Assembly (NCBI GenBank): GCA_031290675.1
Contig: JAITNC010000080.1
Span: forward strand, 1 to 8,813
Length of the DNA stretch: 8,813 bases
From: Campylobacteraceae bacterium
Lineage (GTDB): Bacteria; Campylobacterota; Campylobacteria; Campylobacterales; Campylobacteraceae
Reading direction: 5' to 3'
The notes under the pieces are model-generated. The model made no database searches and was not told the DNA's origin. It saw only the letters and a list, made by a program, of their open reading frames with translations. A program made the translations under genes and the position numbers. The first letter of the stretch is position 1; each line of letters opens with the position of its first letter. Of this stretch, positions 230-8,813 are shown piece by piece.

Positions 230-622
230 TTAATCTTTTTTATAATACTTAATAAGACCTTTTGTCATAAAGTGAAATGTAACTACAATAACGATAAAAT
301 ACAAAAATACATTACCTGTTAGCTTTCCAATAAAATATGCGGAAAAATTGACAGAATTACCGTTATAAATTGCAGGTAATATATTGTAGGTCAATGTAAA
401 AACCAATATAATAATAGTTATAGTGAATGAAAAAATAAATTTCTCTTTCTCCGTAGGCACTCTTTGCTCTTTTTTGACAAAATGATAAGAGGCAAAAATA
501 GAAGATATTATATGTATCATAATGCCAAAGTTTTTGATATTAACGCTTGTATATCCCATAAGCACATATATCATACTAATCAAAAAACTATAACCAAAAA
601 ATATAAGAATATATCTATACAT
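230..622 (-). CDS. Small four-helix membrane protein, ABZJ_00895-like
   Basis: This is a 130-residue hydrophobic protein with four predicted membrane helices at about residues 3-23, 31-49, 61-82 and 99-121, and a basic C-terminal tail (KYYKKD). Between helices 2 and 3 is a charged loop F-V-K-K-E-Q-R-V-P-T-E-K-E-K (48-61). The pattern of helix, FV-x3-R-x-PT-x2-EK loop and further helices resembles the uncharacterised ABZJ_00895 family of ~140-residue inner-membrane proteins. That assignment is from memory of the pattern and is tentative; function is unknown. The ATG at 622 is preceded by GGGGAG at a usual distance. It begins 37 bp after hypA on the same strand, but it is far more AT-rich than the hyp genes, so it looks like an acquired gene rather than an old member of the maturation operon. 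Either read-through from hypA or the promoter candidate inside the hypA end could express it. Confidence 0.75.
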   Translation of the reverse strand: MYRYILIFFGYSFLISMIYVLMGYTSVNIKNFGIMIHIISSIFASYHFVKKEQRVPTEKEKFIFSFTITIIILVFTLTYNILPAIYNGNSVNFSAYFIGKLTGNVFLYFIVIVVTFHFMTKGLIKYYKKD

Positions 623-645: not shown

Positions 646-673
646 AGTATATCGTACCCTCACTCCATCTCAA
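646..673 (-). promoter_or_regulatory. Candidate sigma-70 promoter for the membrane-protein gene
   Basis: On the minus strand TTGAGA (673-668) and TATACT (651-646) are separated by 16 bp, each matching five of six consensus bases. The -35 box lies inside the last codons of hypA. Transcription would start near 639, about 17 nt before the ATG at 622. This would give the AT-rich gene its own expression, independent of the hyp operon. Chance matches in AT-rich DNA are common. Confidence 0.4.
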
Positions 674-1001
674 GTCGCATCAGTAACATCTCCTCCCCGT
701 CCACTATCTCTACATCGTTTTCGCCGCATTGCGGGCAGATAAATTCATTGCGTGTGAGGGTGCTCTGGGCACCGCAGGCGAGGCATTTGATGATGATATC
801 CTGTATGTTCATCACAAGTTCTGACCCCTCGCAGATAGTTTTTTCTTTAAATGTGTCAAATGTCAGCTTCAAAAAGTGCGGTTCTATGCCGCTGAGTTTG
901 CCTATTTTGACCTCTACTTTTGTGATTTTTTTGGCGTTATTGGCTTTGGCGTTATCTTCGCAGAGCGATAAAAGCGAGTTTACGACTGATAGCTCGTGCA
1001 T
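660..1001 (-). CDS. hypA: Hydrogenase/urease nickel incorporation protein HypA
   Basis: HypA is the metallochaperone that, with HypB, inserts nickel into the large subunit of [NiFe] hydrogenases in the cytoplasm. The 113-residue length is typical. The N-terminus is M-H-E-L-S, in which His2 and the N-terminal amine make the nickel site. The zinc site is seen as two CxxC pairs, C73/C76 and C89/C92, separated by 12 residues. The ATG (1001-999) follows the hypE stop directly, with a GAGG ribosome site 9 nt upstream inside the end of hypE, so the two are translationally coupled. It is the last gene of the hypBCDEA block. No clear terminator follows in the 37 bp before the next gene. Nothing is missing or truncated. 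Confidence 0.97.
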   Translation of the reverse strand: MHELSVVNSLLSLCEDNAKANNAKKITKVEVKIGKLSGIEPHFLKLTFDTFKEKTICEGSELVMNIQDIIIKCLACGAQSTLTRNEFICPQCGENDVEIVDGEEMLLMRLEME

Positions 1002-2003
1002 TTAACATATCCTCGGCAACAGTTCGCCTTTTGGCGGTTCTAAAAACCTGCTCGTTCCCCAAGCCGACTTCAAAATCACATGCTCTTTGTAAGAAGCCGT
1101 TACTTTTCCTATCGTGCAGGATTTGGCGCACTCCCCAAACTGCCTTAAGACGCCGAGCGTTTTTTCTGCGTCCTCGCCCCTTACACATATCGCCATAGTG
1201 CCTTCATTTGCCAATTCGTACGGCTCAAAACCAAATATCTCGCAAAGTCCTTTGACCTCATCTGATACCAAAATATCGCTCTCATTAAGCTCAATGCCGA
1301 CTTTTGACGCCAAAGCCCACTCGTTGAGAACTGCACTTAGTCCGCCTCTCGTAGCGTCCCTCAGGGCTTTTGGACGAACGCCGCTGTTAAACAACGCCTC
1401 AAATGGCGCGAAAAGCGAGGCACAATCACTTTTCAAATCCCCTCCAAGCTCAAGCTCTTCCCGCTTTGCCAAGATGCAAGCGCCGTGATTTCCGACCTCG
1501 TTTGAGATGATGATGACATCGCCCTCTTGCAAGTTGTGCGAGGAGATATCGGCGCAGACTATCTCGCCTATGCCGCTTGTGTTGATAAACAAGCCGTCCG
1601 CACTGCCGCGTGGGACGACTTTTGTGTCGCCGGCGACTATTTTCACGCCGCTTTTTTTCATCTCGTCTTTCATTGAGATGACTATCTTTTCCAAATCCTC
1701 ATACAAAAAGCCCTCTTCTATGATAAATCCACAGCTAAGATACAGTGGTTTCGCCCCTGCGCTCACCAAGTCGTTTACTGTGCCGGCGATAGCTATCTTG
1801 CCTATGTCGCCGCCGTTGAAAAAAAGCGGCGTTACGGTGAAAGAGTCCGTTGTGAAGGCTATACGGCCTTTGATGTTCAAAGTCGCACTGTCTTCCATCT
1901 TGTCTAGTATCTCATTGCCAAAATGTTTGAAAAAAAGTCCGCTTATCAAAGACTGCATCTCTTCGCCGCCACCACCGTGGCTTAGTAATATCTTATCGCT
2001 CAT
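1002..2003 (-). CDS. hypE: Hydrogenase maturation protein HypE (carbamoyl dehydratase)
   Basis: HypE accepts a carbamoyl group from HypF on its C-terminal cysteine and dehydrates it with ATP to a thiocyanate, the source of the two CN ligands of the active-site iron. The 333-residue chain has the glycine-rich start L-S-H-G-G-G-G-E-E (7-15), the PurM-like ATP-binding stretch around T-T-D-S-F (51-55) and G-G-D-I-G-K (64-69), the loop G-D-T-K-V-V (125-130), a C-terminal R-D-A-T-R-G-G segment typical of PurM/HypE domains, and the essential C-terminal P-R-I-C with Cys333 as last residue. The ATG at 2003 follows the hypD TGA by one base, with AGG in the hypD end as ribosome site. It is co-transcribed with hypD upstream and hypA downstream. 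It appears fully functional. Confidence 0.97.
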   Translation of the reverse strand: MSDKILLSHGGGGEEMQSLISGLFFKHFGNEILDKMEDSATLNIKGRIAFTTDSFTVTPLFFNGGDIGKIAIAGTVNDLVSAGAKPLYLSCGFIIEEGFLYEDLEKIVISMKDEMKKSGVKIVAGDTKVVPRGSADGLFINTSGIGEIVCADISSHNLQEGDVIIISNEVGNHGACILAKREELELGGDLKSDCASLFAPFEALFNSGVRPKALRDATRGGLSAVLNEWALASKVGIELNESDILVSDEVKGLCEIFGFEPYELANEGTMAICVRGEDAEKTLGVLRQFGECAKSCTIGKVTASYKEHVILKSAWGTSRFLEPPKGELLPRIC

Positions 2004-2004
2004 C

Positions 2005-3135
2005 TCAGTCCCTTAAAAATTTTCCATATTTATAGTACGCCGCACACGCCCCTTCGCTTGACACCATACACGAGCCTATCGGCGTTTTTGGAGTACACGC
2101 TTTGCCAAAAACCTTACACTCAAACGGTTTGGCTCTGCCTCTTAGTATCTGTCCGCAAATGCAAAGTTTGTGGTCGTCTATCGGCTTTTTGGAGAGTTTT
2201 GAAGCGAACAGTACCTCAGCGTCCAAATGCTCATACTCGCGCTTGAGCTTCAATGCGCTTTTTGGTATGTCGCCAAGCCCACGCCAGCGGAAACTAGAGC
2301 GCTCCTCAAGATAGGTATTTATCAACTCTTTGGCTTTTACGTTTCCGTGTTCACTGACGGCTCTTGAGTACTCATTTTCAACCTCACAGCGTCCCTCATT
2401 GAACTGCCTGACGATGCGCAAAACGCCGTCCATAACATCGCTCGGCTCAAAACCCGACACGACGACAGGTGTTTTGTAGCGTTGTACTATCGGCTCAAAT
2501 ATGCCGTATCCTGTTATGACGCTCACGTGAGAAGGCCCCAGAAATGCGTCTATATGGTTCTCTTCGCTCATGATGGCGTGAACAGGCGGCGGGACTAAAA
2601 CGTGGTTGATGTGAAATAAGATATTTTTTATATCCTCTTTCACGACTTTGTCTATCAAGACCGCACTCATCGGCGTTGTGGTTTCAAACCCGATAGCGAA
2701 AAATACAACCCTCTTGTGCGGGTTTTCTTTGGCTATTTTAAGCGTGTCAAGCGGCGAATACAAAGCCCTGATGTCGCACCCCTCAGCCCTTAACGCCTGC
2801 AGCGATGTTTTGCTTCCGGGTACTCTTATCATATCGCCAAGCGTCGCTAAGATGACATTTGGCTCTGCGGCTATCGCTATCGCCTCGTCTATGCGCTCTT
2901 TTGGCATCACGCACACGGGACAGCCCGGGCCGTGTACAAAGTTGATATTTTCGCTCATAAGCTGCGTTAGACCATACTTCATTATCGTATGCGTATGACC
3001 GCCGCAAATCTCCATAATATTTAGCTTTTTTTTCGCCTCTTTTTTGATTTGCAGGCTGAGAGCTTTGATGTGTTCGGGATTTCTGTATGAATTAATGAAG
3101 TCTGTCTGCAAGCCCCATATCTCCTTCAAGTTCAT
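2005..3135 (-). CDS. hypD: Hydrogenase maturation protein HypD (Fe-S scaffold)
   Basis: HypD, together with HypC, is the scaffold on which the Fe(CN)2CO group is assembled. It carries a [4Fe-4S] cluster and redox-active cysteines. Visible motifs are M-E-I-C-G-G-H-T-H (41-49, Cys44), G-P-G-C-P-V-C-V (69-76, Cys72 and Cys75), G-F-E-T-T-T-P (149-155) and a C-terminal cluster region with Cys325, 327, 340, 347, 356 and 364, ending M-V-S-S-E-G-A-C-A-A-Y-Y. Length is 376 residues from the ATG at 3135, as in the family. That start gives a 44-nt overlap with hypC and has only a weak ribosome site. A TTG at 3111-3109 has a perfect AAGGAG 9 nt upstream and would give 368 residues with a 20-nt overlap. 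Conserved sequence begins around F-I-N-S-Y-R (13-18), so both starts keep the whole domain. hypE follows after one base. Confidence 0.97.
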   Translation of the reverse strand: MNLKEIWGLQTDFINSYRNPEHIKALSLQIKKEAKKKLNIMEICGGHTHTIMKYGLTQLMSENINFVHGPGCPVCVMPKERIDEAIAIAAEPNVILATLGDMIRVPGSKTSLQALRAEGCDIRALYSPLDTLKIAKENPHKRVVFFAIGFETTTPMSAVLIDKVVKEDIKNILFHINHVLVPPPVHAIMSEENHIDAFLGPSHVSVITGYGIFEPIVQRYKTPVVVSGFEPSDVMDGVLRIVRQFNEGRCEVENEYSRAVSEHGNVKAKELINTYLEERSSFRWRGLGDIPKSALKLKREYEHLDAEVLFASKLSKKPIDDHKLCICGQILRGRAKPFECKVFGKACTPKTPIGSCMVSSEGACAAYYKYGKFLRD

Positions 3136-3373
3136 CTATCTCGCCGTCGCGCATTTTTGCGGCTATCTCTTCGTATATCGCCAAGCTCTCTTTAGCGTCC
3201 GCTTCGCTTATCTTGCCCATAGCAAAACCCACGTGTATAAGCACGTACTCGCCTATGTCCACTTTTTCGTCTATCAGGTCAAGCGATACTTTGCGCAAAA
3301 CGCCGAGAGTTTCAACTGTGGCGTTATTGTTCTCGTCTATCTCAACGACACGTGAGGGTATTGAAAGACACAT
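3092..3373 (-). CDS. hypC: Hydrogenase maturation chaperone HypC
   Basis: HypC (HypC/HybG/HupF family) binds the active-site iron with HypD and delivers it to the precursor of the hydrogenase large subunit. The N-terminus M-C-L-S-I-P-S provides the essential Cys2, which is exposed after loss of the initiator Met. The second conserved element V-L-I-H-V-G-F-A (44-51) contains the iron-binding His47. At 93 residues it is a little longer than the common 75-90. The extra length is a charged C-terminus (D-E-L-E-G-D-M-G) whose codons overlap the start of hypD, so translation of the two partner proteins is coupled. The ATG at 3373 comes one base after the hypB TGA, with GAGGGG as ribosome site in the hypB end. 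It is intact. Confidence 0.97.
   Translation of the reverse strand: MCLSIPSRVVEIDENNNATVETLGVLRKVSLDLIDEKVDIGEYVLIHVGFAMGKISEADAKESLAIYEEIAAKMRDGEIDELEGDMGLADRLH
3109..3126 (-). promoter_or_regulatory. Strong internal ribosome site that may define a TTG start for hypD
   Basis: AAGGAG at 3126-3121 is the best Shine-Dalgarno sequence near the hypD start. It lies inside codons 4-5 of the ATG-initiated frame and 9 nt before an in-frame TTG (codon 9, 3111-3109). The annotated ATG at 3135 has only a GCGAG-like sequence ahead of it. The true HypD N-terminus could therefore be at the TTG. Confidence 0.4.
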
Positions 3374-3374
3374 C

Positions 3375-4178
3375 TCAACCCCTCAATGCTTTTTTCATCT
3401 TGAGATAGTTTATCCATTTGTCTATGCCTTTTTTGGACTTGCTATCGCACTCAATGATATCAACTTTTGGGTTCAACTTCCTTGCTTCTCTTATCGCTTT
3501 TTCCACACTAAAATCAAAATGCGGCAAAAGCTCCGTTTTGGTTATCAAAAGTATATCGGCGGCTTTGAACATCACAGGGTATTTTGCAGGTTTGTCGTCC
3601 CCCTCAGGCACTGACAAAAGCACGACATTTAGATGCGCTCCGACATCATAGCTTGCGGGACAGACGAGGTTGCCGACATTTTCTATAAAGACTATGTCAA
3701 GTCCTGAGATTGGCATATGATGAAGCCCCTCGTGTACCATAAAAGCGTCCAGATGACAGGCTTGCCCTGTAGTTATCTGATAAGCGGGCGCGCCTTTTTT
3801 GATGATACGCTCGGCGTCTTGATTTGTTTCCAAATCCCCCTCTATCACGCCTATCTTGAAACTGCCCTCTTCTATCGTGGCTTCAAGCAGCGTTGTTTTT
3901 CCGGCACCCGGACTGCTCATAAGATTTATCGCCAAGATGTTATATTCTTCAAAGTGAGCTCGGTTATTTGCCGCCTCTTTATCGTTGGCGTCAAGTATCT
4001 TAGTGATAACTTCCACAGTTTTTTTATCGCCAAGCTGCGGGTTTGAGTGGGCGTGAGCGTGGGTATGTTCGTGAGTATGTCCCTCTTCGTGGGCGTGAGC
4101 GTGAGAGTGGCTGCTCCCATCGGCGTGGGTATGTTCGTGTGAATGGCTGTTTATGGAACAACCGCAATCTTTACACAT
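3375..4178 (-). CDS. hypB: Hydrogenase nickel incorporation GTPase HypB with His-rich nickel store
   Basis: HypB is a SIMIBI-class GTPase that hands nickel to HypA and the hydrogenase large subunit. Domains in order: an N-terminal high-affinity site M-C-K-D-C-G-C (Cys2, 5, 7); a histidine-rich segment with 14 His between residues 12 and 44, likely a nickel store; and the G domain from about 55, with P-loop S-S-P-G-A-G-K-T-T (88-96), G-D-L-E-T (114-118), and the metal-site residues C141-H142 and C173 (E. coli Cys166/His167/Cys198 equivalents). The base-specificity motif is T-K-T-E (213-216) where NKxD is usual. Length is 267 residues. The ATG at 4178 has CAGGAG upstream. hypB opens the hypBCDEA block and is preceded by a 108-bp gap with its own promoter and a palindrome, so it is probably where this operon, or an internal transcript, begins. 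Confidence 0.97.
   Translation of the reverse strand: MCKDCGCSINSHSHEHTHADGSSHSHAHAHEEGHTHEHTHAHAHSNPQLGDKKTVEVITKILDANDKEAANNRAHFEEYNILAINLMSSPGAGKTTLLEATIEEGSFKIGVIEGDLETNQDAERIIKKGAPAYQITTGQACHLDAFMVHEGLHHMPISGLDIVFIENVGNLVCPASYDVGAHLNVVLLSVPEGDDKPAKYPVMFKAADILLITKTELLPHFDFSVEKAIREARKLNPKVDIIECDSKSKKGIDKWINYLKMKKALRG
4057..4139 (-). repeat. Imperfect 66-bp in-frame duplication in the hypB His-rich region
   Basis: A 17-bp stretch, GCGTGGGTATGTTCGTG on the plus strand, occurs identically at 4057-4073 and 4123-4139, exactly 66 bp (22 codons) apart. In protein it is the repeated H-E-H-T-H-A at residues 14-19 and 36-41. The DNA between is made of related GTG/GCG-rich units. This is the mark of a histidine tract that expanded by duplication and may vary in length between strains. 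Confidence 0.7.
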
Positions 4179-4286: not shown

Positions 4287-4703
4287 TTACGATATCGGCA
4301 CTGCCGCTTTGACAAGTTTGGCAAATTTCACGCCCTTAAGTCCCGCTATCTTTTGAGAAAAGCCGACTATATCGTCCGCCATGCCTTTTAACATTATCGT
4401 CTCTAAGCAATTTTCGTGATTGACGTGTACGTGCGTCGTGCACATGATGGTCAAGTTTGCGTCGTGCTGTATGTCTGTTATCTTTTGTACCAAGTCGTTT
4501 TGATGATGAGTGTAGACTATGCTGAGTATGCCTATCACCTCGTCATATCCGCCTTCCCACTCATCTTTGACCATCTTTTCACGTATCAAATCCCTGATAA
4601 ATTCGCTCCTTGAAACATAGCCCTGCGTTTCTATCTTGTTGTCAAGCTCGTTCAAAAGCGGTTCGGGAAGCGAGATAGTAAATCGTATGATTTGTTCGCT
4701 CAT
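4287..4703 (-). CDS. nikR: Nickel-responsive transcriptional regulator NikR
   Basis: NikR is a tetrameric repressor (or dual regulator) that binds DNA through N-terminal ribbon-helix-helix domains and nickel through a C-terminal ACT-like domain. The first ~45 residues hold the RHH pattern (I-I-R-F-T-I-S-L-P beta strand, then two helices with [12 protein letters not shown]). The square-planar nickel ligands are all present as His80, His91, His93 and Cys99, with the same mutual spacing as E. coli H76, H87, H89 and C95. The 138-residue length is standard. The ATG at 4703 has AAGG six bases upstream. nikR lies between hypF and hypB, with 45 bp before it and 108 bp after it. It is the only regulator in the cluster and suggests that maturation is matched to nickel supply. 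Nickel transport genes may be further targets elsewhere. Confidence 0.95.
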
Positions 4704-4748: not shown

Positions 4749-6950
4749 TTATATATGGTTTAACGCATATACTATCTGTCCAAGCGATATAGAACTGTCG
4801 TTTGGCGATATATCACGAGCCGTAACAAACTCTATATCATGGCTTTTCAAGAGCTTTTTTAGAAGCGTTTTGTTTTGAAAAACACCGCCCGAGAGTACTA
4901 CTTTTTTGTCATACTTTTTGGCTATTTGTAGTAAAACAAGCGCCAAAGTATTTATAAATTTCGTAGCCGCAACGTTAGCCCTTTCACCAAGCATCGCCAA
5001 AAACCAATGGCTGTATTCTATCTCGCCTTTATCGTTTATCTTTATCTCGTAACTCTCGTTTATGCTCTCATCATACAAAGCCTCTATCATCATACCGCTC
5101 TCGCCCTCGTATGTAGTGGTTTTCATCTGCAAAATGATAGCCGCCGCAGCGTCAAACAACCGCCCTACCGAATGGCACAAAAGCGCATTTATATCTTTCT
5201 CATAGCTTTGCTCCAGCAGGCGCTTCTCTTTGAAACTATCCAAAAACGCCGCGACCTCTTTTCGCTCACGATGAGGATAAAGTATGGAAAAGGCTGTTCT
5301 GTTTATATTTTTGACGCTTTTATCGCCTCCAAGAAGCTTAAAAGGGGCAAATGTATGAACTCTTTTGTACGCTTTCATATCGCACAGGAAAAACTCCCCG
5401 CCCCAGATACTGTTATCATCTCCAAGCCCCGTGCCGTCCCACGAAACCCCCAAAACTTCCTCATCTATGCCCTGCTCAAACATCACAGCCAATATATGAG
5501 CATAGTGGTGCTGCACGTTCAAAGTGGGGATATTTTGTTTTTTAGCCCAAAGCGACGAGGCGTAGTTCGGGTGAGCATCGCAGACCAACAGATGCGGTGC
5601 AAAATCATAAAACCGTATAAAAGAGGCTATGGTTCTCTTGTACGCCTCCACGCTCTCAACGCTGTCCAAATCCCCTATATGGGGGCTGATGATGATATTT
5701 GAGCCGTTAAATATAGCTATAGTGCTTTTTTGGTGCGCCCCAAGAGCCAATATCTTTTTATCGCAGCCGTAAAACGTCTTGAAGGATTTTGGCGTAAGCC
5801 CTCTTGAGAGCCTCAAAACGATAGCCCTTTTATCCGCAAACTGCACGACGCTGTCATCGCTAAAGTTTACTATATCGCGCTCAAAATCCACAAACGCTTC
5901 TATCACGCCGCCAAGTTTGCCAAGCTGCTCTTTTGAGGTGATGATAGGCTCGCCGCTGATGTTTGCGCTCGTGGCGATGAGCGGTCTTTGTGTAAGCTCC
6001 AAAAGCTGCGTATGCAGAGGCGTATAAGGCAAAAAAACGCCAAGTGTATTGATATTTGGGGCGATGATGTCAGGCAGTGTACACTCTTTTTTCTTGCTCA
6101 CAAGCACTATCGGGCGGGCGGCGGAAAGAAGTGCGCTCTCCTCCTCTTTTGTCGTGTCGCAGTAGCGTTTTATCATCTCAAGTGAGCCAAAAAGCACGGC
6201 AAAAGGTTTTGCAGGACGTCTTTTTTGCTCTCGCAAGCGCAAAATGGCACTTTCGTTTAAAGCGTCGCAAATGATGTGAAACCCGCCCATACCTTTGAGC
6301 GCTGTTATCCGTCCTGCTGTTATCGCATGAGATAATTTTTGCAGTGGCAAGTCCCGCGTACTTGAACCCTCGCTCACATCATAAAATCTCACAGCAGGGC
6401 CACACCTCGGACAGCTTATGGGTTGAGCGTGGTAGCGGCGGTTGAGCGGGTCTTTGTATTCACGCTCGCACTCGGGACACATTTGAAAGGCACGCATAGA
6501 GGTATTTTCACGGTCGTACGGTACGCTCTCCATGATGGAGTACCTCGGCCCGCAATTTGTGCAATTTATCAAAGGGTAGCCAAATCGTCTGTCGTTTTTG
6601 TCCTCCATCTCACGAGCGCAATCCTCGCAGAGCGACATATCCGGCACGATAAGCGTGCTTTTGAGGTTTTGGCTTTGGCTTTTGATGATTTTGAAATCCT
6701 CAAAATTTCTCAACGCAACTTGGATTATCTCCACGCCGTCCACACGTGCCAAAGGCGGAATACTCTCACGAAGTTCACGCTCAAAAGCGCAAAAACTCTC
6801 CGCCTCCCCCTCAACTTCTATATGAACCCCGCTCGCTTGGTTAAATACTACGCCTTTGAGGTTGTGCCCCAGTGCCAATGTGTAAACAAACGGGCGAAAT
6901 CCAACGCCCTGCACCCTGCCCTCAATATCGTAGATTTTACATATTTTCAT
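4749..6950 (-). CDS. hypF: Carbamoyltransferase HypF
   Basis: HypF uses carbamoyl phosphate and ATP to make carbamoyl-adenylate and transfers the carbamoyl group to the C-terminal Cys of HypE. All four expected parts are seen in 733 residues: an acylphosphatase domain (1-90) with G-R-V-Q-G-V-G-F-R (11-19, Arg19) and Asn37; two zinc fingers with Cys108/111, 130/133, 158/161 and 180/183; a YrdC-like domain (about 200-385) with A-K-P-F-A-V-L, L-P-Y-T-P-L-H (307-313) and S-A-N-I-S-G-E-P (328-335); and a Kae1-like domain (about 395-733) with H-H-Y-A-H (481-485), W-D-G-T-G-L-G (504-510), S-G-G-V-F-Q-N (687-693) and N-D-S-S-I-S-L-G-Q (717-725). The last motif is more often NDGG. The ATG at 6950 follows the stop of the upstream HypF-like gene with no gap, so the pair is translationally coupled. 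The protein appears catalytically complete. Confidence 0.97.
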   Translation of the reverse strand: MKICKIYDIEGRVQGVGFRPFVYTLALGHNLKGVVFNQASGVHIEVEGEAESFCAFERELRESIPPLARVDGVEIIQVALRNFEDFKIIKSQSQNLKSTLIVPDMSLCEDCAREMEDKNDRRFGYPLINCTNCGPRYSIMESVPYDRENTSMRAFQMCPECEREYKDPLNRRYHAQPISCPRCGPAVRFYDVSEGSSTRDLPLQKLSHAITAGRITALKGMGGFHIICDALNESAILRLREQKRRPAKPFAVLFGSLEMIKRYCDTTKEEESALLSAARPIVLVSKKKECTLPDIIAPNINTLGVFLPYTPLHTQLLELTQRPLIATSANISGEPIITSKEQLGKLGGVIEAFVDFERDIVNFSDDSVVQFADKRAIVLRLSRGLTPKSFKTFYGCDKKILALGAHQKSTIAIFNGSNIIISPHIGDLDSVESVEAYKRTIASFIRFYDFAPHLLVCDAHPNYASSLWAKKQNIPTLNVQHHYAHILAVMFEQGIDEEVLGVSWDGTGLGDDNSIWGGEFFLCDMKAYKRVHTFAPFKLLGGDKSVKNINRTAFSILYPHRERKEVAAFLDSFKEKRLLEQSYEKDINALLCHSVGRLFDAAAAIILQMKTTTYEGESGMMIEALYDESINESYEIKINDKGEIEYSHWFLAMLGERANVAATKFINTLALVLLQIAKKYDKKVVLSGGVFQNKTLLKKLLKSHDIEFVTARDISPNDSSISLGQIVYALNHI

Positions 6951-8603
6951 CTAAAGCTCTATCGGCAGCTCTTTGCTAAAGTGGACTTTATGGTTTACGC
7001 TAAGGTGTTTGACGCAGAGATTTGATATGCTCTTTGTGCCAAAAAGCGAACCCATAAAAAATATATTTTCCACCTCAAAATCGCCCTTGAGTTTATCGGC
7101 AAAATCGCTCAAAAAATAGACCAAACTCTCGCCTATACCGTAAGAGAGCATACCGTCATCAGCCCCTGCAAGCCTGAAACTCATCACGCTTTTTAGCAAT
7201 TTGTATGCGTCCAACGACTGCTTTGCGCTGTTTTCGTCTATAAGTTTATAATCAATCCTTGGACCCTTCTCGCCTGCAAACATCTCTATATTTTCCAAAA
7301 GTTTCTCTCTTGCCAGCCTCAAGTCATCGCCAAATCCCATCAAAATCGCCGCTATACCCCAAAGATTTGACACACTTTGCGCCACCCCTTCAAACGATAT
7401 ATTTTCTATTTTTTGATATATATGAGGGAAAGCCTGTTTGTAATTTGCCACAAGTTTCTCTCCGCTCTCATCGCTGGCAAGGCGCAAAAATATCTCTTTA
7501 AAAGAGTTTTTAAACTCTATGCTCAAGATGTCCAAAACGCCCACTTTATCGTTGTAAAACATAATCTTATCGTTGTGTTTGAGGCTTAGGTATATACCGC
7601 AATTTGCCTTGTCAAACACGCCGCTCTCCTGCATCGTAGCAGCAAACTGCGTGTGATAGTGGTGCTTCAAAAACTTGATATTTTTCAAGCTCTGCGGCTT
7701 CATGTGCCACGTGCCGTGAGTGATGATGTTTTGCCCGCTTTGTAAAGCGCATACTTCAAGTCGTGGACGTGGAGTGATACCCTGCTCAAAATACAAAAAC
7801 GCCGAAGCGAGGTTCTCTTTTTGCTCCAAAATAACAAATTCAACCCCTTTTTTAAAGAGCGCCAACGACAAAAAATACAAAAACAGGTCATCAGCCATAG
7901 CAAGCCTTAAAAATCTTGGAAAATTTGGATATTTTGAAGCAAATATCATATTTGTATGGGCTCGCACTATCGGTTTTTCAAGCGATACGAGCGTGCTAAT
8001 CTCTTCGTTTTTTGTAACCGCTATCTTGCTTACGATGCTAAGCTCACTCGGCATCACGACAAACTCATCATCATAAGCTTTGTCTTCTATCTGCGAAACA
8101 CAAAAGATGCCGCTTAGTGTTTTGATATTTAGCTTTTGACCCTTTGCCACGATGTCCGCCGCACGCTCAAAAGCTTCAGCGAAATCTTCGCTGTATTTGT
8201 GCCGCACACCGTCCTGTTCAAAGATGAGCGGCAAATAGATTTGCTGATTTTCCCCTATCTCGTTTTGCACAAACGGATTAAAATCCCTCACAGCCGTGTC
8301 TAATGCCTGTTTTGTAAATGGCAGATATATATCGCACGGCGGCACTCTGATGGCTTGGTTTGTATCCCACGCTTCATCAATATAGGCGTTGGTTGAGTTC
8401 AAAAACAGAGAGTATGGAAGCTCTTTTGAGAGTTTCTCAGAAAACAGACCAAGCTGCTCCTCATCGCCTTTGACGTGCAACAAAACTTTATCGTCCTTTT
8501 TGCTGATATAACTCTCCACATCAGCACTTTTGGCTATATTGTCCAGAAAATTTTCCAAAACTGCGTTTTGCGAAACATAAGTAAATTCATAAACTAAAAT
8601 CAT
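6951..8603 (-). CDS. HypF-like protein: degenerate HypF paralogue without zinc fingers
   Basis: This 550-residue protein has no obvious catalytic motif, but reading it against the adjacent HypF shows colinear similarity. Residues 40-63 match HypF 42-65 without gaps (acylphosphatase strand and helix, V-x3-V-x-G-x2-E). Residues 181-213 match HypF 250-282 without gaps, with 12 of 33 identical by eye, ending P-I-V (YrdC-like). G-I-T-P-R (275-279) faces G-L-T-P-K, H-H-Y-H (314-317) faces H-H-Y-A-H, S-V-x2-L (410-414) faces the same pattern at HypF 594-598, and G-S-L-F-G (518-522) faces G-G-V-F-Q. Key residues are gone: Arg19 and Asn37 equivalents are Glu17 and Lys35, the third His is Thr318, and the chain ends before NDSSISLGQ. 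The region of the eight zinc cysteines holds only Cys90. It may be a non-catalytic partner of HypF or HypE. The ATG at 8603 has AGAGGA just upstream. Expression is coupled to hypF. The existence of the gene is near certain; the paralogy is inference. Confidence 0.8.
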   Translation of the reverse strand: MILVYEFTYVSQNAVLENFLDNIAKSADVESYISKKDDKVLLHVKGDEEQLGLFSEKLSKELPYSLFLNSTNAYIDEAWDTNQAIRVPPCDIYLPFTKQALDTAVRDFNPFVQNEIGENQQIYLPLIFEQDGVRHKYSEDFAEAFERAADIVAKGQKLNIKTLSGIFCVSQIEDKAYDDEFVVMPSELSIVSKIAVTKNEEISTLVSLEKPIVRAHTNMIFASKYPNFPRFLRLAMADDLFLYFLSLALFKKGVEFVILEQKENLASAFLYFEQGITPRPRLEVCALQSGQNIITHGTWHMKPQSLKNIKFLKHHYHTQFAATMQESGVFDKANCGIYLSLKHNDKIMFYNDKVGVLDILSIEFKNSFKEIFLRLASDESGEKLVANYKQAFPHIYQKIENISFEGVAQSVSNLWGIAAILMGFGDDLRLAREKLLENIEMFAGEKGPRIDYKLIDENSAKQSLDAYKLLKSVMSFRLAGADDGMLSYGIGESLVYFLSDFADKLKGDFEVENIFFMGSLFGTKSISNLCVKHLSVNHKVHFSKELPIEL

Positions 8604-8625: not shown

Positions 8626-8654
8626 TATATACCCCTCCCATTGTCATGCGTGAA
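8626..8654 (-). promoter_or_regulatory. Weak promoter candidate ahead of the hypF-like/hypF pair
   Basis: On the minus strand TTCACG (8654-8649) and TATATA (8631-8626) are 17 bp apart, each matching four of six consensus bases; reading the -10 as TATAAA two bases later improves it. Transcription would start near 8619, about 16 nt before the ATG. The operon could equally be read from a promoter outside the window. Confidence 0.3.
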
Positions 8655-8662
8655 CGAAGCCC

Positions 8663-8701
8663 CACAGTGTCATGGCTCTGCCGAAGGCGTGAGCATCTGT
8701 G
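8663..8701. repeat. Imperfect palindromic element upstream of the hyp cluster
   Basis: Three nested arms pair in order: CACAG (8663-8667) with CTGTG (8697-8701); ATGGCTC (8672-8678) with GAGCAT (8691-8696), one base bulged; and GCC (8680-8682) with GGC (8686-8688) around a GAA loop. A partial second copy of its start, TGTCATGCGTGAACGAAG, lies immediately left at 8643-8660 and shares TGTCATG with 8668-8674. This looks like a dispersed palindromic intergenic repeat rather than a terminator, since no T-run follows on either strand. Confidence 0.5.
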
Positions 8702-8735
8702 TTTATTTTTACTTTTTTTGCAACTCTTACTCTTA

Positions 8736-8761
8736 TTACTTTCTTTTCCGAAAGAAAGTAA
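8736..8761. repeat. Perfect 11-bp hairpin, part of a likely dispersed intergenic repeat
   Basis: TTACTTTCTTT (8736-8746) and AAAGAAAGTAA (8751-8761) are exact inverted repeats around the loop TCCG. Downstream on the plus strand the sequence continues CCAAAGAAAC with a C-rich run to the window edge. AAGAAAGTAACCAAAGAAA-type stretches are, from memory, a recurring intergenic element in many proteobacterial genomes. No T-run follows on either strand, so it is not a standard terminator. I see no gene in 8604-8813. Confidence 0.55.
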
Positions 8762-8813
8762 CCAAAGAAACTCCCCCTAAGTGTAACTGTCCTTCGGATA
8801 CCCTGCGCATATT

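Follow-up and report, generated by a model that had tools for sequence, protein, structure and literature searches.

In Helicobacter pylori, the hydABCDE operon corresponds to the genes hp0631-hp0635 (excerpts of PMC4992972). The phenotype reported for hydE of this bacterium is a loss of hydrogenase activity that nickel does not rescue, with normal urease (excerpts of PMC7695850, citing Benoit 2004), and in the accessible parts of later papers hydE is said to have an unknown or incompletely understood function (PMC7695850, PMC5557546). In the HypE-HypF complex, the C-terminal cysteine of HypE is directed at HypF's Kae1-like domain (excerpts of PMC4506123). In this work we analyzed a stretch of 8,813 nucleotides from a Campylobacteraceae bacterium (assembly GCA_031290675.1, contig JAITNC010000080.1), hereafter the window, that carries a gene of 550 codons whose TAG stop is directly joined to the ATG of hypF. 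This gene is the published hydE, a name that the initial annotation of this DNA had missed. What was first observed in the gene is confirmed, on firmer evidence than could be given initially, and the interpretation holds in part. We conclude that its product is a HypF paralogue devoid of catalytic residues and zinc ligands, which most likely (with a probability of about 0.55) acts as a non-catalytic maturation adaptor dedicated to the hydABC-encoded, membrane-bound uptake hydrogenase.

Identity of the gene as hydE

The identification is based on the position of the gene, which is that of hydE in the H. pylori operon: it lies 3' of hydC-hydD in named loci of Helicobacter, Sulfurospirillum, Sulfurimonas, Sulfurovum and Arcobacteraceae, and also in a Helicobacter-like genome (G153) and in genome G167. 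The HydE profile A1 matches the frame that follows hydD in G153 (E 4.5e-72), in G167 and in the named Helicobacter loci, which establishes its homology with hydE. The named loci were collected with one peptide pattern, 80 of 105 being kept; by title all belong to Campylobacterota, and they include H. cetorum (L079), not H. pylori. A hydD gene is present at most 300 bp upstream in 72 of the 80 loci and hypF at most 700 bp downstream in 38; 30 loci have both and none has neither, so the gene stands beside hydD and/or hypF in 80/80, and the wide occurrence away from hyp genes that would have refuted the initial annotation was not seen. The eight loci with no upstream hydD (seven from Campylobacter, one at a contig edge) all have hypF downstream, and in 31 of the 38 hypF-linked loci the two frames overlap or are separated by no more than 12 bp. 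On a plasmid of Sulfurimonas paralvinellae (L172), hydrogenase genes, a HydE of the 641-aa type (6056-7981, plus strand, named 'hypothetical protein'), hypF and the other hyp genes are found together; a plasmid search with the window HydE returned one Sulfurovum record.

Protein searches gave 71 listed matches in one case and the best 120 of 553 in another, most of them nameless; among the matches listed, some relatives are already called 'Kae1-like domain-containing protein' or 'hydrogenase maturation factor HypF'. No paper linking the HydE of Campylobacterota with HypF was found in the full-text literature searched, which left most subscription journals outside its reach. Thus hydE is known by name, and its nature as a degenerate HypF that tracks the hydrogenase, not HypF, was not found in the searchable papers.

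Kinship with HypF, residue losses and selection

The homology of HydE with HypF is real, as judged from the family profile and from the predicted structure. The predicted model has a well-ordered core, and in a structure search it matched the HypF fold over 508 of its 550 residues; neither the profile nor the structure search pointed to another fold, in agreement with the HypF, YrdC and Kae1 kinship proposed initially. Pairwise comparison is less telling. The gapless match between HydE 181-213 and HypF 250-282 does hold the 12 identities in 33 residues first counted by eye, a value reached by 1 of 40 shuffles of HypF and by itself near chance, and BLASTP of the window HydE against the window HypF was uninformative (E 0.22); neither was used as proof of homology. 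A single-sequence search of the PDB with the window HydE gave three matches at E 0.5-0.8, none of them to HypF, and its score against TIGR00143 is 13.9 bits, short of the HypF family cut-off of 466.1.

HydE retains the HypF fold and domain order, as had been stated, but is without the second zinc finger and the beginning of the Kae1-like domain, its residues 310-550 aligning by structure to about 74-284 of TsaD/Kae1; the term 'full length' was slightly too strong. The acylphosphatase Arg19 and Asn37, reported as lost, are indeed absent, the window protein having E and K at these columns, and the Arg and Asn are each present in 0/24 HydE of the 550-residue type versus 23/23 HypF. The zinc cysteines are lost more completely than the seven of eight proposed: all eight aligned ligand columns are without Cys (the six longer relatives of 586-646 aa keep 8/8), Cys90 falls outside any of them, the first finger has no Cys and the second is deleted. 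As to the HHYAH motif, the HHY that the window protein shows literally is no conserved feature of the family, His being found in 2, 2 and 0 of 24 HydE of the 550-residue type at the three HypF columns; GGVFQN is degenerate rather than absent, with the first G in 24/24 and F in 16/24. The Kae1-like motifs HHxxH, DGTG and NDxx..GQ, to which the HypF literature assigns roles, are not found in the HydE alignment, and the ATP and carbamoyl-phosphate motifs of HypF are mostly lost or deleted. From the sequence we infer that HydE would be catalytically inactive.

HydE has conserved motifs of its own, SLEKP (E209 and P211 are invariant in alignment A3), KGPRIDYKL and MSFKLAGVDD. These family-specific motifs and the well-ordered predicted core could indicate a new catalytic or small-molecule function on a reworked YrdC/Kae1-like pocket; we consider this very unlikely, given that the HypF substrate motifs are mostly gone, that the Kae1-like domain lacks its initial segment, and that some members are even smaller. 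One of these is a 380-aa frame (L061, 844-1986, plus strand) directly 3' of a hydD-like frame in one Campylobacteraceae genus, further reduced; present-day relatives show several stages of zinc-finger and domain loss.

In an unrooted maximum-likelihood tree of 31 HydE and 29 HypF rows, the latter including other phyla and one archaeon, a branch with support 100/100 separates all HydE from all HypF rows, and the long and the short HydE types form one group each. For this reason the window hydE is no recent tandem copy of its neighbour hypF, contrary to what had been assumed. The separating branch is long, with more than 2 changes per column, and the wide distribution of HydE suggests an old lineage. 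The view that a HypF-derived protein without catalytic residues has been selectively retained is borne out by the alignment and by dN/dS, which ranges from 0.12 to 0.31 in HydE and indicates purifying selection in 8/8 pairs tested, one of them saturated at synonymous sites; HydE evolves slightly faster than HypF (0.08-0.24) in all eight.

Occurrence with hydrogenase genes and proposed role

Profile A1, HypF and hydA were searched in 397 Campylobacterota genomes; doubtful cases were inspected, and the genome sets were read by eye from the result tables, not by script. Before curation A1 matched 364 genomes and 33 had no match; a re-search with A3 in two of the 33 gave a match to the HypF frame only in G200 and none in G285. 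Six matches were dropped: remnants with stops (G142, G179), a 94-aa frame (G196), partial profile matches within frames of 740 and 738 aa read as HypF (G239, G392), and a match within a 1022-aa frame (G170). The weakest matches kept were those of G345 (8.4e-11), G366 (9.3e-12), G352 (1.5e-13) and G222 (9.2e-14); in G222 and G366 the protein was seen as frames of 380 and 511 aa, and G345 and G352, from the genus of G222, were kept on profile score.

Matches to hydA were found in 368 genomes, 358 of which carry the main class (357 of them at E 1.4e-130 or lower, the remaining one being G020, whose hydA is split in two, 4.5e-90). HydE is present in all 358, and no intact HydE was found in the other 39. 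A hydA match outside the main class is present in ten of the 39: G126, G129, G282, G284, G303, G326 and G392 (1e-107 to 1e-112), G200, G285, and G170 (1.2e-4, under the cut-off). For six of these, hydA lies inside a frame of about 800 aa (L145, L146, L148-L151); two of three N-termini viewed start with the FAD-binding-like GGGIAAVY, and the RR motif is present in none of the three. Strong HypF (E 5.1e-200 or better) occurs with no intact HydE in 14 of the 397 genomes (G126, G129, G142, G179, G200, G239, G282, G284, G285, G287, G303, G326, G386, G392), and HydE occurs with no strong HypF in six (G099, G366, G356, G210, G382, G387), whose assemblies have 50-170 contigs. Across the genomes, the presence of HydE follows the hydrogenase and not HypF.

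These data bear on the role first proposed for the gene, a non-catalytic subunit or regulator of HypF, as a heterodimer or a carbamoyl channel. The fold common to both proteins, the stop-to-ATG coupling in the window and the tight junctions of most hypF-linked loci speak for it. Against it stand the 14 genomes just listed; G142 and G179, where no hydA was found and hydE has decayed to a remnant with several stops while hypF is kept (E 1.8e-224 and 3.4e-221); three genomes (G225, G122, G125) in which two hyd operons each carry a hydE of their own while a single HypF exceeds the cut-off; and G153, where the two genes are far apart (hydE at 662 kb, hypF at 45 kb). A role as constitutive HypF subunit or in carbamoyl channelling is thus very unlikely, and distribution, decay and copy number together point to a factor for one hydrogenase class.

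The main rival is that HydE acts late, on the hydrogenase subunits themselves, serving as their chaperone in HydA/HydB assembly or in Tat proofreading; it would take the place of proteins of the HybE/HyaF types and have no contact with Hyp proteins. It is consistent with the linkage of hydE to hydD and hydBC, the single HydE per hyd operon in the three genomes mentioned, its absence in the six genomes whose sole hydA found is the 800-aa frame, and the wording on membrane localisation in excerpts of PMC4992972. In addition, none of the 121 genomes sampled from the phylum gave a match to HybE or HupH_C, so some of the usual helpers seem to be missing for these hydrogenases. The HyaE (PF07449) matches in 117/121 genomes are short frames, most of them covering only about profile positions 49-103; they were read as thioredoxins, and HyaE itself may still be present. 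It would nonetheless be surprising for a subunit chaperone to derive from a HypF fold, and hypF is close downstream in 38/80 loci; we regard this explanation as rather unlikely, though it is the leading alternative.

In the preferred reading, that of a maturation adaptor, HydE would reuse protein-binding surfaces of HypF, among which the side turned towards HypE (or towards the HypC-HypD-HypE scaffold) is the most likely candidate, and would have gained affinity for its own hydrogenase; it could then steer the delivery of ligands or of Fe(CN)2CO to the HydB precursor or, alternatively, maintain this precursor in a competent state up to its cleavage by HydD and its export through Tat. HypE had also been named initially as a possible partner. 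In a more specific version, which we put forward tentatively, Campylobacterota would have made a scaffold out of a whole carbamoyltransferase: HydE, a dead HypF present once for each respiratory hydrogenase, would dock on HypE or HypC-HypD through the old partner surface of HypF and route Fe(CN)2CO to its client, forming a so far undescribed client-specific layer of NiFe-site assembly. Several observations weigh against the adaptor. Of 138 near-invariant HypF positions, just 7 persist in 80% or more of the 550-type HydE, hence an inherited HypE interface is invisible in the sequence; motif loss alone is no proof of inactivity; the Helicobacter-like member has no Pfam family match and is tied to HypF via the family profile only; and G200 has a hydA of another class (E 2.6e-59) with the RR motif and no HydE, from which it follows that not every exported hydrogenase needs it.

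HydE is, then, probably a helper dedicated to the assembly of one respiratory hydrogenase class in Campylobacterota, and likely a non-catalytic one. A degenerate HypF acting in this way would explain a gene that is reported as required for activity and has had no known role, and its recognition makes the gap testable: which Hyp or Hyd partner it binds, and which cofactor intermediate builds up in its absence. If this is true, HypABCDEF plus the protease would be an incomplete maturation set for these hydrogenases, which bears on their production in other hosts, and HydE would be a clear case of an enzyme remade into an accessory protein.

The window locus and known systems

The minus strand of the window reads hydE, hypF, nikR, hypB, hypC, hypD, hypE, hypA (Table 1). 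No hydD is encoded in the 210 bases left upstream of hydE, so hydE may have left hydD or an insertion may separate the two; in this organism, hydA, hydB, hydC and a 5' portion of hydD are located at one end of a different contig (L166, contig C22). The contig end upstream of hydE (8640-8813) is non-coding and repeat-like, with a short inverted repeat around TTTCTTTCGGAAAAGAAAG. The window HypB has a long His-rich N-terminus, also seen in nickel-storing HypB proteins, and downstream of hypA a small membrane protein of the ABZJ_00895 family is encoded (230-622, minus strand).

Table 1. Genes of the window and putative domains of HydE
Feature	Position	Strand	Basis
hydE, 550-aa HypF-derived accessory protein	6951..8603	-	ORF; ATG start, TAG stop
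acylphosphatase-like domain, aa 1-76	8376..8603	-	alignment; Pfam acylphosphatase 12.7 bits, below cut-off
zinc-finger region remnant, aa 89-125	8229..8339	-	alignment with HypF and zinc-bearing HydE relatives
YrdC/Sua5-like domain, shortened, aa 126-300, with SLEKP	7704..8228	-	structure matches to Sua5/TsaC from aa 108
Kae1-like domain without first part, aa 310-550, with KGPRIDYKL and MSFRLAG	6954..7676	-	TsaD/Kae1 matches; HypF_C_2 14.4 bits, below cut-off
hypF, canonical	4749..6950	-	TIGR00143, 773 bits; start codon abuts hydE stop
nikR, nickel-responsive regulator	4287..4703	-	family profile matches
hypB	3375..4178	-	TIGR00073, 285 bits
hypC	3092..3373	-	TIGR00074, 85 bits
hypD	2005..3135	-	TIGR00075, 503 bits
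hypE	1002..2003	-	TIGR02124, 445 bits
hypA	660..1001	-	TIGR00100, 95.9 bits

Hydrogenase-specific accessory proteins such as HybE, HyaF (HoxQ) and HyaE are encoded with the structural genes, and their likeness to HydE lies in the proposed role; the window HydE gave no match to Pfam PF11939 or PF04809 (HybE, HupH_C) at E up to 1, and none to the HyaE family. With the HydE of [FeFe]-hydrogenase maturation, a radical SAM protein, it has only the name in common: the two are unrelated, no radical SAM match was obtained in Pfam or TIGR at E up to 1, and the HydE of a Sulfurospirillum paper is, in its excerpted text, the [FeFe]-maturation protein (PMC4794192). HypF1 of C. necator is, like HydE, a reduced HypF, and in the accessible part of their paper its authors suggest interference with the HypE-HypF interaction (PMC9100943); HypF1, however, has one of the three domains and is apparently functional in some conditions, whereas HydE keeps the domains and not the active-site residues. 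The Helicobacter HydE (HP0635) belongs to the same family and follows hydC-hydD in Helicobacter loci, while the window hydE heads a hypF/hyp run, with hydABC and part of hydD on another contig. A known system close to HydE is the HypF carbamoyltransferase (TIGR00143; PDB 3vth, 3vti, 4g9i, 3tsp), with which HydE shares the order of acylphosphatase-like, YrdC-like and Kae1-like domains and a place beside the hyp genes, and from which it differs in having lost the catalytic residues, the zinc fingers and the beginning of the Kae1-like domain, and in an occurrence that tracks the hydrogenase, not HypF.
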